Assembly: GCF_012027495.1 (NCBI RefSeq)
Contig: NZ_SNUK01000003.1
Span: 62,001 to 126,000 of the forward strand
Direction: 5' to 3'
Length of the DNA: 64,000 nt
Source: Thermococcus sp. JdF3
Lineage (GTDB): Archaea; Methanobacteriota_B; Thermococci; Thermococcales; Thermococcaceae
The notes beneath the pieces were generated by a model. It did no database searches. It was not told where the DNA came from and saw only the letters and a program-made list of their open reading frames with translations. The position numbers and the translations under genes are program-made. Positions 18,395-24,802 of the stretch are shown here, piece by piece. Position 1 is the first letter of the stretch, and each line of letters starts with the position of its first letter.

Positions 18395-18601
18395 ATGGCC
18401 AGGTGGAACGTCTGCTCCTACTGCGGAAAGGAGTTCGAGCCGGGAACCGGCAAGATGTACGTCAGGAACGACGGCAGAGTCCTGTTCTTCTGCTCCAGCA
18501 AGTGCGAGAAGTACTACTTCATGGGCAGGAACCCGAGAAAGCTCAAGTGGACCAAGGCCTTCGAGGAGGCCCGCCTTCAGAGGGCCAAGAGGAAGAAGTG
18601 A
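18395..18601 (+). CDS. rpl24e: ribosomal protein L24e
   Basis: A 68-aa zinc-binding protein of the 50S subunit. The TRASH-type zinc motif is complete: [13 protein letters not shown] and [11 protein letters not shown]. The [13 protein letters not shown] helix and basic tail RAKRKK are typical. It starts five bases after rps28e, with its ribosome site (CAGGAGGTAATCGCG) overlapping the rps28e stop region. A T-rich terminator-like stretch (tgatttctttcttttctc, 18600-18617) follows, separating it from the inserted KaiC-like gene. Confidence 0.98.
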
Positions 18602-18707
18602 TTTCTTTCTTTTCTCTCATATGTTTGCCGACTCCCGTTCTAATAACTTGGCCTGAATATTCGCAATTGTTATAAATCCTTCAATACATTTTAACCGGGG
18701 GAATCCT

Positions 18708-19892
18708 ATGATTCCGCTGGGAATGAAGCGCCTGGATGAGGTACTGGGTGGGGGCATTGAAGAGGGATCCAGCCTCGCGTTTGTAGGTTCAATCTGTCGA
18801 GACAACATTGTCCTAATGCATCAGCTTGTTTTCAACCTTCTGAAGGCAGGATACAGGGTTTTGATTGTGGAGTTCCGGCAGTCCCCGGACATGCTCAGAA
18901 AAGAGCTCCTTCACTACAACATCGACTACTCAGGTTTTGTGGAGAACGGTCAGCTGCGGATCTTCGATGGTTTTTCAAACCTCTACGGGGTTGAGAAAAT
19001 CCAGGGGGCCAACGTGCTCTCCAATCCTCTCGACCTTGGAATAACGTCCGCGGTAATAAGGGACACAATGTCCGGAGGGAGGTTTGATTTCCTCGTTATA
19101 GACGACCTAAACGTTCTTTATACCCTCCTGTCCAACTCAAAGGCGTACCTCAGGGCAATCACGAGGCTGGTGAACTCAATAAAGAGAACGGGATTCCAAA
19201 CCTTCGCGGCTTTTTCCGAGGACGTGTTCGAGAGAAGTGACTTAACGGCGGGTTTAATGCCCTTTGACTACGTCTTTGATGTTAAGGATGGATACATAAC
19301 CCTGCGTCGCTCTCTCCAGCCTCTCAAGATACCTTCCCCCAAGGTGCCGTATATCAAAACCGAGCTCGGTGTTGAGGCTATCCTGGAAAGACACACCACC
19401 CTTGAATCCATAAAAAGGAATCTCTGGCTCGATGATGAAGGGAATCTGTGGATGGGTGACTCCAGGGTTCAGCTCATAAACGAGGACAGCGAGGCATCAT
19501 TGGTTGAGTTCGTTTACGAATACCTCGGCCCGGAGGACGGAAAACGCTTCCTTTACCTGTGGGGGAGGAAGGAGTTCATAGGTATCGGGAGGGCAGCAAG
19601 GAATCAGTACGACAACCTTCGCGATGCTCTGCTGTCCGTTAAATTTGCAACTGAATCCAGCGGGGGCGGAAGGATCGAGATAGCGGAAGTTCAGGAGGAT
19701 TTCGTCGTTCTCAGGGGTAAAAACCTGTTCCCATCCAGGAGGGGGTACTCATATCGGTTCCACATTAACTACGCGGGCGAACTCTCCCAGTTTTTGACAG
19801 AGTTCACTGGTGAGCCGTGGGAGGGAGAAGAAGTTAAATGCCAGTCAATGGGCTCCGAATATTGCGAATTCGTGTTCAGACGCAAAAAGTGA
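18708..19892 (+). CDS. KaiC/RecA-like domain protein with C-terminal V4R domain; Walker A degenerate
   Basis: A 394-aa protein. The N-terminal half has a KaiC/GvpD-like fold: MKRLDEVLGGGIEEGSSLAF, a later FDFLVIDDLNVLY Walker B-like strand, and AFSEDVFERSD. The position of Walker A reads FVGSICRDNIV instead of GxxGxGKT, so classical ATP binding is unlikely. The C-terminal half (from about residue 215) looks like a V4R ligand-binding domain, ending in VKCQSMGSEYCEFVFRRK with the conserved Cys pair. It may be a small-molecule sensor. It has its own TATA (ttgttataaatcc, about 18667-18679) and lies between rpl24e and ndk, which are normally adjacent, so it was probably inserted. Confidence 0.75.
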   Translation: MIPLGMKRLDEVLGGGIEEGSSLAFVGSICRDNIVLMHQLVFNLLKAGYRVLIVEFRQSPDMLRKELLHYNIDYSGFVENGQLRIFDGFSNLYGVEKIQGANVLSNPLDLGITSAVIRDTMSGGRFDFLVIDDLNVLYTLLSNSKAYLRAITRLVNSIKRTGFQTFAAFSEDVFERSDLTAGLMPFDYVFDVKDGYITLRRSLQPLKIPSPKVPYIKTELGVEAILERHTTLESIKRNLWLDDEGNLWMGDSRVQLINEDSEASLVEFVYEYLGPEDGKRFLYLWGRKEFIGIGRAARNQYDNLRDALLSVKFATESSGGGRIEIAEVQEDFVVLRGKNLFPSRRGYSYRFHINYAGELSQFLTEFTGEPWEGEEVKCQSMGSEYCEFVFRRKK

Positions 19893-19942
19893 ATCCAAAA
19901 ACCTATTAACACCATTTCATTGTAGTTATTGAGGTGTTGTCA

Positions 19943-20467
19943 ATGGCTGAGAAGAAGATAGAAAGAACACTCGTTATACTCAAGCCCGACGCCGTTGTTC
20001 GTGGGCTGATGGGGGAAATAATCTCCCGCTTCGAGAAGAGGGGGCTTAAAATCGTCGGGATGAAGATGATATGGATCACCCGCGAGCTGGCCGAGAAGCA
20101 CTACGAGGAGCACAGGGGCAAGCCCTTCTTCGAGCCGCTCATCGACTACATCACCAAGGCCCCGAGCGTCGTCATGGTCGTGGAGGGCAGGTACGCCATA
20201 AGCGTCGTCAGGAAGATGGCCGGCGCCACGGACCCCAAGGACGCCGAGCCCGGAAGCATAAGGGGAGACTACGGCCTCGACGTCGGGGACGCCATCTACA
20301 ACGTTGTCCACGCCTCGGACAGCCCCGAGAGTGCCGAGAGGGAGATAAACCTCTACTTCAAGCCGGATGAGCTCTACAGGTACTGCAAAGCCGCTGACTG
20401 GTTCTACCACACGCACGCCAGGGCGAAGAGGGAGTATCTCGACAGCATGGACTGCCTTGAGCGTTAA
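19943..20467 (+). CDS. ndk: nucleoside diphosphate kinase
   Basis: A 174-aa enzyme that balances NTP pools through a phosphohistidine intermediate. [20 protein letters not shown], the active-site His in [17 protein letters not shown] and a long archaeal C-terminal extension ([15 protein letters not shown]) are visible. ATG 19943 is preceded by GAGGTG (19931-19936); the in-frame GTG at 19934 lies within that ribosome site. The stop overlaps the convergent membrane gene by four bases. In most archaea ndk follows rpl24e directly and precedes infB. Here the KaiC-like gene and a reverse-strand membrane gene separate them. Confidence 0.97.
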
Positions 20468-21279: not shown

Positions 21280-21373
21280 TCCACCACCGGAGAGGATTAC
21301 CACGTGGCTTTTTAATCCTTGCGTCCGAACCCTTTAAAAGCCCACGCCTGAGTTAGGCTTAGAGGTGAGGAAG

Positions 21374-24300
21374 ATGAAGAGGATTAGACAGCCGATCATA
21401 GCGGTTCTCGGACACGTTGATCACGGCAAGTGCCTGCTCCCGGACGAAACCGTTGTGGTTCCTGAACTCGGAAGGGTAACCCTGCGGGAGCTCTTTGAAC
21501 TGGGCGGGAGAACCGTTGAAAGGGACGATCAGCTGGAGGTCAAAGAGCTGTCACTCCCAATAACGTCAGCCGATGGAGATGCCAGGGTTTCAGTCCGGAC
21601 CGGAACCCACGTCTGGCGCCTAAGGCACAGGGGTAAGATGCTGAGGGTCAGGCTCAAGAACTGGCATTCCGTGAGCGTCACCCCGGAGCATCCCTTCCTA
21701 ACAACCGGAGGATGGAAGAGAGCGGACCAGCTCAGACCCGGCGATTACATAGCGGTTCCGAGGTTCATTCACGCCAACGAGGATAGGGGAGTCTTTGAGG
21801 GGTTCGTCAGAAGAAAGCTCTCGGTGCCCGAGCTCATCGTGAAGCTGAGGGAAGACGCTCTGGAGAACGTTGAGGAGAGGTTCAGGGGAGATAAGGCCTA
21901 CAAGGTGCGCTCCAACGTCTTCCGGGCCGAGGATCTCTCCGACGACCTGTTGGAGAAGGTCGAGAGGATAGCCTTCACGCCGAGGGTTCACCGCTCGGGA
22001 AAGCCGGTTCACTACGTAAAGCTCCCCAGAACCGATGATGAGTGGAGGGCCCTCTTCTACTTCGCGGGCGTTATGTTCGGCGACGGGAGTCAGGAGAAGA
22101 TAGCCAACAACGACGTTGAAGTGTTCGAGAGGTTGAAGCTTGTGGAATCTCTGGGCGTCGAGCTGGTCAGGGTCAGGAGAAAAACCTCCTGGGAGATCGA
22201 GGTTAGAAGGGGCAAGAACGCCCTCATCAGGCTCCTCCGCGTTCTCTTTGACTACCCCGAGAGGCAGAAGGCGAGGAACATAAGGATCCCCAACGCGCTC
22301 TTCCTTGCCCCGAGGGATTACGTGGCCGAGTTCATCAGGGGCTACTTTGATGCCGACGGGTACGTGAACCTTAAGGATGCAAGGATAGAGGTAACGAGTG
22401 CCTCCAGGGAGTTCCTTGAGGGGCTATCGCTCGTCCTGCTCCGCTTCGGTATAGTTTCCAAACTCTACCGCCCGGATTACACGACCCTTGTGATCTCGGG
22501 CAGGAGGAACCTCAGGGCGTTTCGGGAGTTCATAGGGTTCACCGTCGTGGAAAAGGCGAAGAGGCTCGATGAAACCATAGCGAAGAGCAAGAAGAGCGAG
22601 GTTTACCCGATATTCGAGGAACTGAAACGCCTGAGGCTCCTCTTCGGCTTCACGAGAACTGAACTCAACTCGACGGTCCCATTTTACTCCAAATACGAAT
22701 CGAGCGAGGCACCGAGCTACGAGACCCTGATGAGGATCCTCGGCGCAATCGAGGGGGGCTCACCGACCCTTGCCAGAAAGCTCGCGGTCCTTGAGGGCGG
22801 GGCCAGGGACCACAACTACCTCCTCGCCCTCGAAAAGGATGGTCTCATAAAAGACGGGAAGCTCACGGAACTGGGGCGGGAGCTCCTTGAGGTCTGGCGC
22901 AACAGGGAGTTCGATTCCAGGGACGTTGATTACGTCCGCAACATAGCGGAGAACTTCGTTTTCATCCCTGTTGAGGGCATAGAGGAGTTCGACTACGACG
23001 GCTACGTCTACGACCTGACCACCGAGACCCACAACTTCGTCGCCAACGGGGTACTGGTCCACAACACCACCCTGCTCGACAGGATAAGGCGCACGAACGT
23101 CGCGGGCAAGGAAGCGGGCGGAATAACCCAGCACATAGGCGCGACCGAGGTTCCCATCGAGACGGTCAAGCAGCTCGCGGGCCCGCTCATCAAGCTCTGG
23201 AAGGGCGAGATAAAGCTCCCCGGACTGCTCTTCATAGACACCCCCGGTCACGAGGCCTTCACCAGTTTGCGTGCCAGAGGTGGAAGCCTGGCAGACCTCG
23301 CGGTTCTTATAGTGGACATCAACGAGGGCTTCCAGCCGCAGACCATAGAGAGCATCGAGATCCTCAGGAAGAACAGGACACCCTTCATCGTCGCCGCCAA
23401 CAAGATAGACAGGATAAAGGGCTGGAAGGTCGAGGAGGACGAGCCGTTCCTGGTGAACATCAAGAAGCAGGACCAGAGGGCCCAGCAGGAGCTTGAGACC
23501 AAACTCTGGGAGCTGATAGGCAAGTTCTACGAGATGGGCTTCCAGGCCAACCGCTTCGACCGCGTCCAGGACTTCACCCGCGAGCTGGCGATAGTCCCGA
23601 TTTCGGCCAAGCACGGCATAGGCGTTCCGGAACTTCTCGTCCTCATCGCCGGTCTCAGCCAGAAGTACCTCGAGGAGAAGCTCAAGATCGAGGTTGAAGG
23701 AACGGCGCGCGGCACGATCCTCGAAGTCCGCGAGGAGCTCGGCCTGGGAACCACGCTTGACGTCATTATATACGACGGAACCCTCCGCAGGGACGACACC
23801 ATCGTGGTTGGAGGCAAGGACAAGGCGATAGTTACAAAAATCCGCGCCCTCCTCAAGCCAAAGCCCCTCGATGAGATACGCGACCCGCGCTTCCGCTTCG
23901 ACCAGGTTGAAGAGGTCGCCGCCGCGGCGGGTATAAAGATAGCCGCCCCGGGTCTGGAGGAGGCTCTGGCCGGCTCACCGGTTATAGCGGCCCGCTCGGA
24001 GGAGGACATTGAAAAGGCCAGGCAGGAGATCCTGAGCCAGATACAGAGCGTCGTCATAAGCACCGGCAAGGTGGGCGTCATAGTCAAGGCCGACACCCTC
24101 GGCTCGCTCGAGGCCCTTAGCAAGGAGCTTCAGGAGAAGGGGATTCCCATCAGAAAGGCCGACGTAGGGAACATCAGCAAGACCGACGTGATGGAGGCCC
24201 TGAGCGTCCGCGAGGAGGAAGAGAAACACGGCGTTGTTCTGGGTTTCAACGTCAGGGTGAACGAGGACGCTGCAGAGGTTGCCAAGGCCAAAGGCGTTCC

Positions 24301-24802
24301 AATATTCACCGGCAACATCATCTACAAGCTCATCGAGGACTACGAGGCCTGGGTCAAGGCGGAGGAGGAGAAGAGGAAGCGCGAGCTCCTCAGCAAGGTC
24401 ACCTTCCCGGGCGTCATCAGGCTCTACCCGGACGAGCGCTACGTTTTCAGGAGGAGCCACCCCGCGATAGTGGGTATCGAAGTCGTGGAGGGCCGCATAA
24501 GACCCGGAGTGACACTCATCAAGCAGAACGGCCAGAAGGTCGGCGTCATAAAGTCAATCAAGAACAAGAACGACTTCGTCCAGGAGGCCAAGAAGGGTGA
24601 CGCAGTTGCGGTGGCCATCGAGGGTGCGATGGTCGGCAGGCACATACACCCTGGAGAGACCCTCTACGTTGACCTGAGCAAGAACGACGTCATAATCCTC
24701 GCCAAGCAGCTCAAGAACGAGCTGGACGACACTGATGTGAAGGCTCTTAAAATGACTGCAAAGGTGAAGGCTCAGCAGGACCCGTTCTGGAAGGCGGTGT
24801 GA
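21374..24802 (+). CDS. infB: translation initiation factor IF5B (IF2), intein-containing
   Basis: The precursor is 1142 aa; removal of the 545-aa intein leaves a 597-aa factor, the usual archaeal length. IF5B is a GTPase that joins the ribosomal subunits and positions Met-tRNAi. The extein shows GHVDHGK (residues 13-19), split from the following T by the intein, then DTPGHEAFTSLRARGGSLAD, NKIDRIKGW, the beta-barrel domain II, the IF2-C-like domain III and domain IV (ending TAKVKAQQDPFWKAV). ATG 21374 follows GAGGTGA (21362-21368). Since the intein cuts the P-loop, splicing is essential for function. The convergent GT39-like gene ends six bases after the stop. Confidence 0.97.
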   Translation: MKRIRQPIIAVLGHVDHGKCLLPDETVVVPELGRVTLRELFELGGRTVERDDQLEVKELSLPITSADGDARVSVRTGTHVWRLRHRGKMLRVRLKNWHSVSVTPEHPFLTTGGWKRADQLRPGDYIAVPRFIHANEDRGVFEGFVRRKLSVPELIVKLREDALENVEERFRGDKAYKVRSNVFRAEDLSDDLLEKVERIAFTPRVHRSGKPVHYVKLPRTDDEWRALFYFAGVMFGDGSQEKIANNDVEVFERLKLVESLGVELVRVRRKTSWEIEVRRGKNALIRLLRVLFDYPERQKARNIRIPNALFLAPRDYVAEFIRGYFDADGYVNLKDARIEVTSASREFLEGLSLVLLRFGIVSKLYRPDYTTLVISGRRNLRAFREFIGFTVVEKAKRLDETIAKSKKSEVYPIFEELKRLRLLFGFTRTELNSTVPFYSKYESSEAPSYETLMRILGAIEGGSPTLARKLAVLEGGARDHNYLLALEKDGLIKDGKLTELGRELLEVWRNREFDSRDVDYVRNIAENFVFIPVEGIEEFDYDGYVYDLTTETHNFVANGVLVHNTTLLDRIRRTNVAGKEAGGITQHIGATEVPIETVKQLAGPLIKLWKGEIKLPGLLFIDTPGHEAFTSLRARGGSLADLAVLIVDINEGFQPQTIESIEILRKNRTPFIVAANKIDRIKGWKVEEDEPFLVNIKKQDQRAQQELETKLWELIGKFYEMGFQANRFDRVQDFTRELAIVPISAKHGIGVPELLVLIAGLSQKYLEEKLKIEVEGTARGTILEVREELGLGTTLDVIIYDGTLRRDDTIVVGGKDKAIVTKIRALLKPKPLDEIRDPRFRFDQVEEVAAAAGIKIAAPGLEEALAGSPVIAARSEEDIEKARQEILSQIQSVVISTGKVGVIVKADTLGSLEALSKELQEKGIPIRKADVGNISKTDVMEALSVREEEEKHGVVLGFNVRVNEDAAEVAKAKGVPIFTGNIIYKLIEDYEAWVKAEEEKRKRELLSKVTFPGVIRLYPDERYVFRRSHPAIVGIEVVEGRIRPGVTLIKQNGQKVGVIKSIKNKNDFVQEAKKGDAVAVAIEGAMVGRHIHPGETLYVDLSKNDVIILAKQLKNELDDTDVKALKMTAKVKAQQDPFWKAV
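21431..23065 (+). other. intein in infB (P-loop site), LAGLIDADG type
   Basis: 545 codons interrupt GHVDHGK|T. The element begins with Cys (CLLPDETVVVPELGRVTLRE), has a block B TPEHPF (about residue 80), and ends with TTETHNFVANGVLVHN before Thr+1. Two dodecapeptide-like motifs, FYFAGVMFGDGSQ and FIRGYFDADGYVN, mark a LAGLIDADG homing endonuclease with both acidic residues kept. The insertion site matches the known IF2 intein of Pyrococcus. Confidence 0.96.

Follow-up and report, generated by a model that had tools for sequence, protein, structure and literature searches.

A KaiC-fold protein without Walker A joined to a V4R sensor half in Thermococcus sp. JdF3 and its relatives

In this work, we analyzed a window of 64,000 nucleotides from the heat-loving archaeon Thermococcus sp. 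JdF3 (the whole stretch of DNA studied, to which all coordinates refer) and specifically its 394-aa open reading frame with an ATG start at 18708..19892 of the forward strand, here named KV after its KaiC and V4R parts. Pfam matches, fold models and 40 full-length homologues indicate that KV joins an apparently inactivated KaiC domain (residues 1 to about 205) to a V4R half (about 224-394). We give about even chances to the reading that KV senses a small molecule or a redox state via V4R and relays it by protein contact through a KaiC scaffold that does not hydrolyse ATP. Inactivated KaiC domains were known before, as were V4R sensors (PMC5847659, in part); what is new, as far as seen in the available portions of the literature, is that the two are combined in one protein that has a fixed residue pattern of its own, and we do not claim a first description of the fusion. 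We know of no input described for most archaeal KaiC-like proteins. A dead KaiC domain in lasting fusion with a small-molecule sensor of recognisable type would offer a testable case of how a signal enters the KaiC network, and genetic tools exist for Thermococcus and its kin. KaiC-like proteins have been proposed as archaeal signalling hubs (as cited in the accessible part of PMC5847659).

Position of the gene and its promoter-like element

The original prediction placed a 394-aa KaiC/V4R gene between rpl24e and ndk, and the gene is indeed there: L24e (18395-18601) lies on one side and ndk (19943-20467) on the other, with S28e and L7Ae further upstream, all four names having been taken from the earlier reading of the sequence. 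The TATA box that this reading assigned to the gene is also present, as TTATAAAT at 18670-18677, starting 38 bp ahead of the KV ATG, with CGCAATTG just before it, so that the BRE/TATA-like element spans 18662..18677 (+ strand). The stretch CGCAATTGTTATAAATCCTTCAATACA is identical in genomes G016 and G023, and among the 19 members of the tree clade that holds the window gene, TTATAA occurs upstream in 19/19 and is immediately preceded by CGCAA in 12 (by eye). The promoter-like element of KV is conserved. A sigma-70 promoter and terminator scan was set aside as unsuited to archaea. Separately, we observed that CGTACTACACGCAAAGGTTATAA spans the TATA box upstream of KV at loci L058, L061, L063, L065, L069 and L071 (one mismatch, in L071); it may hold an operator or reflect only close kinship.

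The further claim that rpl24e and ndk are usually adjacent is true of only a part of Thermococcaceae. Among the 52 genomes of the window's genus that could be scored (out of 61), the L24e-ndk gap measures 79-109 bp in 26 and more than 1 kb in the other 26, a count in which the ndk match of G046 is a fragment; none of the nine genomes of g3 or the 13 of g4 has them close together: they are separated by more than 40 kb, differ in contig or strand, or could not be scored. In 25 of the 26 wide slots (all but that of G066), we found KV five times and, 17 times, a family of about 376-421 aa whose N-terminus is signal-like, the copies of G054 and G059 being fragmented; G068 has both this family and KV. 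As judged from sequence, the slot contents include a signal-like family of about 385 aa, arrays of proteins of about 550 aa and a TnpB-like gene in G069. In 12 other genomes of the window's tree clade KV is found immediately upstream of L7Ae, other contexts being seen elsewhere, and for 35 of the 40 homologues the gene is not in the L24e-ndk slot. Since this slot is permissive to insertion and is filled by other genes in relatives, the position of KV says little about its function, and the ribosomal-cluster setting looks incidental.

A functional tie of KV to the ribosomal cluster or to ndk was considered and rejected. The T-rich tract after L24e (18602..18614, +), a likely terminator present too at the empty sites of relatives, and the KV-ndk spacer with TCCAAAAACCTATTAAC (19893..19942, +), a likely ndk promoter preserved as in slots without an insert, both persist around KV, and other genes occupy the slot in relatives. 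As observations in their own right, the L24e-ndk gap (18602-19942 in the window; homologous slots L121-L160) is an insertion hotspot in the window's genus, two of the slot proteins of about 550 aa in G021 carry a CGP tag at their end, and a 1145-aa IF2/eIF5B-like gene at 21365-24802 of the window carries an apparent intein in its GTPase P-loop (by eye).

The KaiC half and the V4R half

Residues 3-165 of KV match Pfam KaiC (PF06745) with 33.7 bits (cut-off 26.6), and the same family is matched by 32/32 family members at E ≤ 1. An AlphaFold2 model built from 12 family sequences reached a mean pLDDT of 89.2 and a pTM of 0.60, values that imply well-modelled domains whose packing against each other is unsure. 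In this model, residues 1 to about 226 match best the structure of PH0284 (Z 26.3, rmsd 2.3, 218 residues), further matches being KaiC (Z 25.5) and PH0186 (Z 24.3); PH0284 and PH0186, from Pyrococcus, are the closest solved archaeal KaiC-like structures to this half and are without a V4R half. The modelling thus supports a KaiC fold for the KaiC/RecA-fold domain (residues 1-205, 18708..19322, +).

As had been proposed, Walker A is lost. Its place is taken by FVGSICRDNI at residues 25-34 (18780..18809, +), and the loss is fixed: GxxxxGK[ST] is absent from 40/40 homologues, and the P-loop Lys and Thr/Ser are missing in all of them. Within this degenerate loop G27 and D32 are invariant (40/40), position 33 is N24/H14/Y2 and position 34 I13/V16/L4/R7. 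The loss is accompanied by that of the KaiC catalytic Glu pair after strand 2, at the site of which KV has F56-R57-Q58 (18873..18881, +; positions set by HMMER alignment to KaiC), position 57 being R33/K7, and hence basic in 40/40, and position 58 Q38/H1/E1. Walker B D132 is kept and the adjacent D133 is likewise found in 40/40 (19101..19106, +). When the KaiC paralogues of the same genome were aligned likewise, three (L003, L004 and L005/L006) proved to keep GKT and the fourth, L002, to be degenerate. Judging from these residues, the N-terminal half presumably lacks KaiC-type ATPase activity. The L002 protein (1471-2244, G000:C5:153588) was noted separately as a second KaiC-like protein of the window genome, of 258 aa and also without a P-loop, with no Pfam family match at E ≤ 0.001.

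Across the 40 homologues, 18 + 23 residues are invariant. In RecA folds the nucleotide site is formed at the ends of the core strands. Nine of the 18 invariant residues within residues 1-205 fall in eight-residue windows running from the ends of five core strands, windows that cover 40 of the 205 positions (P = 0.0022) and were picked once the alignment had been seen; with six-residue windows the count is 7/18 (P = 0.0072), and control windows before the strand starts hold 2/18 and 0/18. This clustering at strand ends suggests that the KaiC active site of KV is conserved with a changed chemistry. The conserved alternative nucleotide site that would have told against the original prediction is half present: there is a strongly conserved alternative pocket, but the residues by which a P-loop holds phosphate are missing from it.

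The V4R/XylR_N-type sensor half comprises residues 212-394 as modelled (19341..19889, +). Pfam V4R (PF02830) matches residues 352-391 with 42.1 bits (cut-off 31), and KV is the sole V4R match in its genome at E ≤ 0.01. Modelled alone, this half reached a pLDDT of 85.6 and matched PoxR (Z 16.4, 138 residues, rmsd 2.2), MopR (Z 16.2) and MJ1460 (Z 13.4), so that a PoxR/MopR/DmpR sensor fold is supported by the model. The fold check of both halves thus agreed with the two assignments first made, KaiC and V4R, and returned no different fold.

His352, Glu375, Cys378 and Cys386, each invariant in 40/40 homologues, span a putative metal site (19761..19865, +) that we consider likely. The alignment gives MJ1460, a stand-alone V4R protein of Methanocaldococcus that has no KaiC half, the identical four residues at identical spacing. 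The 26 and 8 spacing of KV 352-378-386 equals that of the zinc ligands Cys151-177-185 of DmpR and of the MsvR cysteines 206-232-240, according to the available parts of PMC7264223 and PMC3729527, respectively; the former prints the Glu ligand of DmpR as 172. In KV and MopR the Glu sits three residues ahead of the second Cys. In the HMMER alignment to MopR, which opens a gap of 12 residues, H352 is paired with a different His and not with the first Cys ligand, and the match of the first ligand to the bacterial sensors therefore rests on spacing and on MJ1460. At the first-ligand place, or within one residue of it, a Cys is present in 7/7 fetched stand-alone V4R proteins of Thermococcaceae and in one HTH-V4R protein of this family.

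The MopR residues that we take to be the counterparts of the phenol contacts of DmpR, and whose chain positions agree with them, have no equal in KV: in the HMMER alignment the MopR His corresponds to the invariant T315, and the Trp to the variable position 343, which adjoins the invariant L340-F341-P342. In DmpR, phenol is contacted by a His and a Trp (PMC7264223, in part). Their absence from KV predicts a different ligand for the conserved V4R pocket. Both metal and ligand would be bound by the C-terminal half.

Family spread and gene neighbours

Matches at E ≤ 1e-8 occur in 42 of 94 Thermococcaceae genomes and yield 40 full-length homologues, 41-100% identical, duplicate loci of one KV gene being counted once; outside the 40 stand the fragments of G088 and a 27%-identity match in G087, which is a 257-aa KaiC paralogue. 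The joining of KaiC and V4R, held in the original prediction to be unusual, is real as an architecture and is no oddity of one locus, but occurs across the family. The genus g4 has no KV in any of its 13 genomes. When a 32-member profile was run on 115 genomes of the phylum, no full-length KV appeared in the 21 genomes outside Thermococcaceae, where the profile matches are confined to the KaiC part. Two family-specific peptide patterns found 11 loci in genome contigs, all of them Thermococcus, Thermococcaceae or Thermococci, although distant fusions could escape pattern or profile, and a genome-contig scan with KV as single protein query gave no match. There was no sign of KV as phage or plasmid cargo (viral contigs by the two peptide patterns, plasmids by tblastn).

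In a midpoint-rooted maximum-likelihood tree, the 40 homologues cluster mainly according to genus and genomic place; the window's genus forms two groups, of 19 and four homologues, the window gene being in the 19. This is compatible with inheritance that was mainly vertical, accompanied by moves and losses. KV looks like a working family and not like a broken gene, because related species keep the same design.

The neighbours of KV vary between clades, with no constant partner. The search for regulators beside such fusions, suggested with the original prediction, found one: in g2, g5 and g6 a gene for an HTH-phosphoribosyltransferase lies upstream and overlaps KV by 4 bp in 8/8 genomes with full-length KV (the one member scanned matched NCBIfam PRK08558 with 368 bits and Pfam HTH_3 with 23.2 bits, cut-off 23). 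An apparent 4-bp overlap with the upstream gene in G030 was dropped, the KV start there being the longest possible. In the same three genera, one small-protein family follows KV at -4 to +21 bp in the seven of these eight genomes that have a downstream gene in reach. The HTH-phosphoribosyltransferase and small-protein genes are also adjacent without KV, as in the window's own genome. Apart from KV, the HTH-phosphoribosyltransferase gene (L043 5236-7582 and relatives) was observed in 91/94 Thermococcaceae genomes, and a protein of about 109 aa in 81/94, often beside it (from coordinates, uncounted); a 151-aa member of the latter family matched nothing in Pfam at E ≤ 0.1.

Other contexts contain redox-type genes, which were selected after the genes had been seen and whose counts stand without a background rate. 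In g3, a rubrerythrin-like gene lies directly upstream of KV in 7/9 genomes, with Pfam scores of 28.0, 21.5 and 20.5 bits in the three scanned (cut-off 22.8). Within 3 kb of KV in G027, G067 and G072 we found a peroxiredoxin (3/3), a flavodiiron protein (2/3) and a ferritin (1/3), one member of each being scanned, and in G030 a DUF438-hemerythrin-PAS gene two genes upstream. We treat the link of KV to oxidative stress as a lead only.

Known systems and the possible mode of action

Several known systems resemble KV in part. The term iKaiC designates inactivated KaiC domains (MEDS, PF14417, and DUF835, PF05763) of archaeal signalling proteins (PMC5847659, in part). Like them, KV has a KaiC fold whose ATPase site is apparently defunct, in a likely signalling protein, and weak matches to MEDS and DUF835 occur in 15/32 and 2/32 members, respectively, at E ≤ 1 (best E 0.0012 and 0.031). 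In contrast to them, KV matches KaiC PF06745 itself, shows an invariant Asp/Arg/Gln pattern peculiar to it and continues into a V4R half; in the window KV, MEDS scored 14.8 bits, below its cut-off of 29.8, and DUF835 was not listed by Pfam at E ≤ 5. With the aromatic-sensing bEBPs XylR, DmpR, MopR and PoxR, KV shares the sensor fold joined to an ATPase-type domain, and XylR_N is weakly matched by 8/32 members, but the order of the domains in KV is reversed, its ATPase-type domain is of the KaiC/RecA type and apparently inactive instead of AAA+, and the phenol-contact His and Trp are absent. MsvR, the HTH-V4R redox regulator of methanogens, likewise ends in a V4R domain whose ligand-like positions keep the 26 and 8 spacing, whereas KV has no DNA-binding domain (Pfam listed no HTH family in the window KV at E ≤ 5), carries the KaiC fold instead and has a His where MsvR has C206. 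In the accessible parts of PMC5847659, PMC3729527, PMC7264223 and PMC6393860 we found no description of a KaiC-V4R fusion; the 2017 mBio survey of KaiC-like proteins was outside this scope.

The mode of action that we prefer is that of a cytosolic sensor-adapter. Its V4R half, probably folded around Zn2+ held by His352, Glu375, Cys378 and Cys386, would bind a small, probably hydrophobic ligand or answer a redox cue. The N-terminal domain would keep the KaiC fold but have lost KaiC-style binding and hydrolysis of ATP, and the face of its former active site may have turned into a conserved pocket or interface formed by G27, D32, R/K57-Q58, D87-G88-N91-Y93 and D132-D133. The ligand state of V4R might then pass to the KaiC domain and on to a partner by docking or oligomerisation; a candidate for this partner is a catalytically active KaiC paralogue, as is the HTH-phosphoribosyltransferase regulator in genomes that couple the two genes. 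What we infer are metal and ligand binding, the lack of ATPase activity, the partner and the output. It is tempting to speculate, although we hold this extension to be improbable, that KV is a ligand-gated pseudo-KaiC in which occupancy of V4R by a redox-active or hydrophobic metabolite alters the interface formed by the dead ATP site, which would then dock on, and tune, active KaiC ATPases or the HTH-phosphoribosyltransferase regulator. To our knowledge, no such regulatory-subunit mode is known for archaeal KaiC networks.

Alternative explanations have to be weighed against this sensor-adapter. The lost Walker A could be the mark of a pseudogene, KV being a decaying or functionless lineage-specific gene in a permissive slot. 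That slot accepts many unrelated genes, the spread is patchy (40 full-length copies among 94 genomes), and GC3 is 0.62 in KV against 0.84 in ndk and 0.93 in L24e, although the adjoining eIF5B-like gene has 0.60. Yet KV is under purifying selection in close pairs, with dN/dS against G016 and G023 of 0.087 and 0.089 (NG86) or 0.122 and 0.128 (YN00), and the frame is open in 40/40 homologues, the only fragmentary copy being that of G088. Together with the invariant residues, these values make decay very improbable, and a pseudogene, or decay in a single genome, was rejected, as the pattern is kept by 40 homologues. We find it unlikely, too, that the KaiC half binds a nucleotide or a related molecule unconventionally via D32, D87 and D132-D133, for example by metal bridging, under the regulation of V4R: the kept Walker B Asp, the residues that stay unchanged (40/40) along the former nucleotide-binding face and the gene overlap with a phosphoribosyltransferase-type regulator in three genera speak for it, but the P-loop Lys and Thr/Ser and the Glu pair are gone, and the acidic residue in place of the last P-loop Gly should repel phosphates.

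Somewhat less doubtful, yet still only a tentative possibility, is that KV is a redox or oxygen sensor of an oxidative-stress response, acting like MsvR but via protein contacts and not through an HTH of its own. The redox-type neighbours described above argue in its favor, as does the control of fpaA, which encodes an F420H2 oxidase, by the V4R protein MsvR in Methanothermobacter (PMC3729527, in part). However, such neighbours were not seen in the L24e-ndk, pre-L7Ae or HTH-phosphoribosyltransferase contexts. C206 is, according to the accessible part of the literature on M. acetivorans MsvR, the Cys with the clearest redox-switch effect; because KV has a His at the matching spacing, a thiol switch of the MsvR type is less probable here.

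Regarding the HTH-V4R layout itself, a 188-aa open frame of this kind, MsvR-like in its arrangement (HTH by eye), was observed in a Thermococcaceae genome (L166, G088:C120:379-555).
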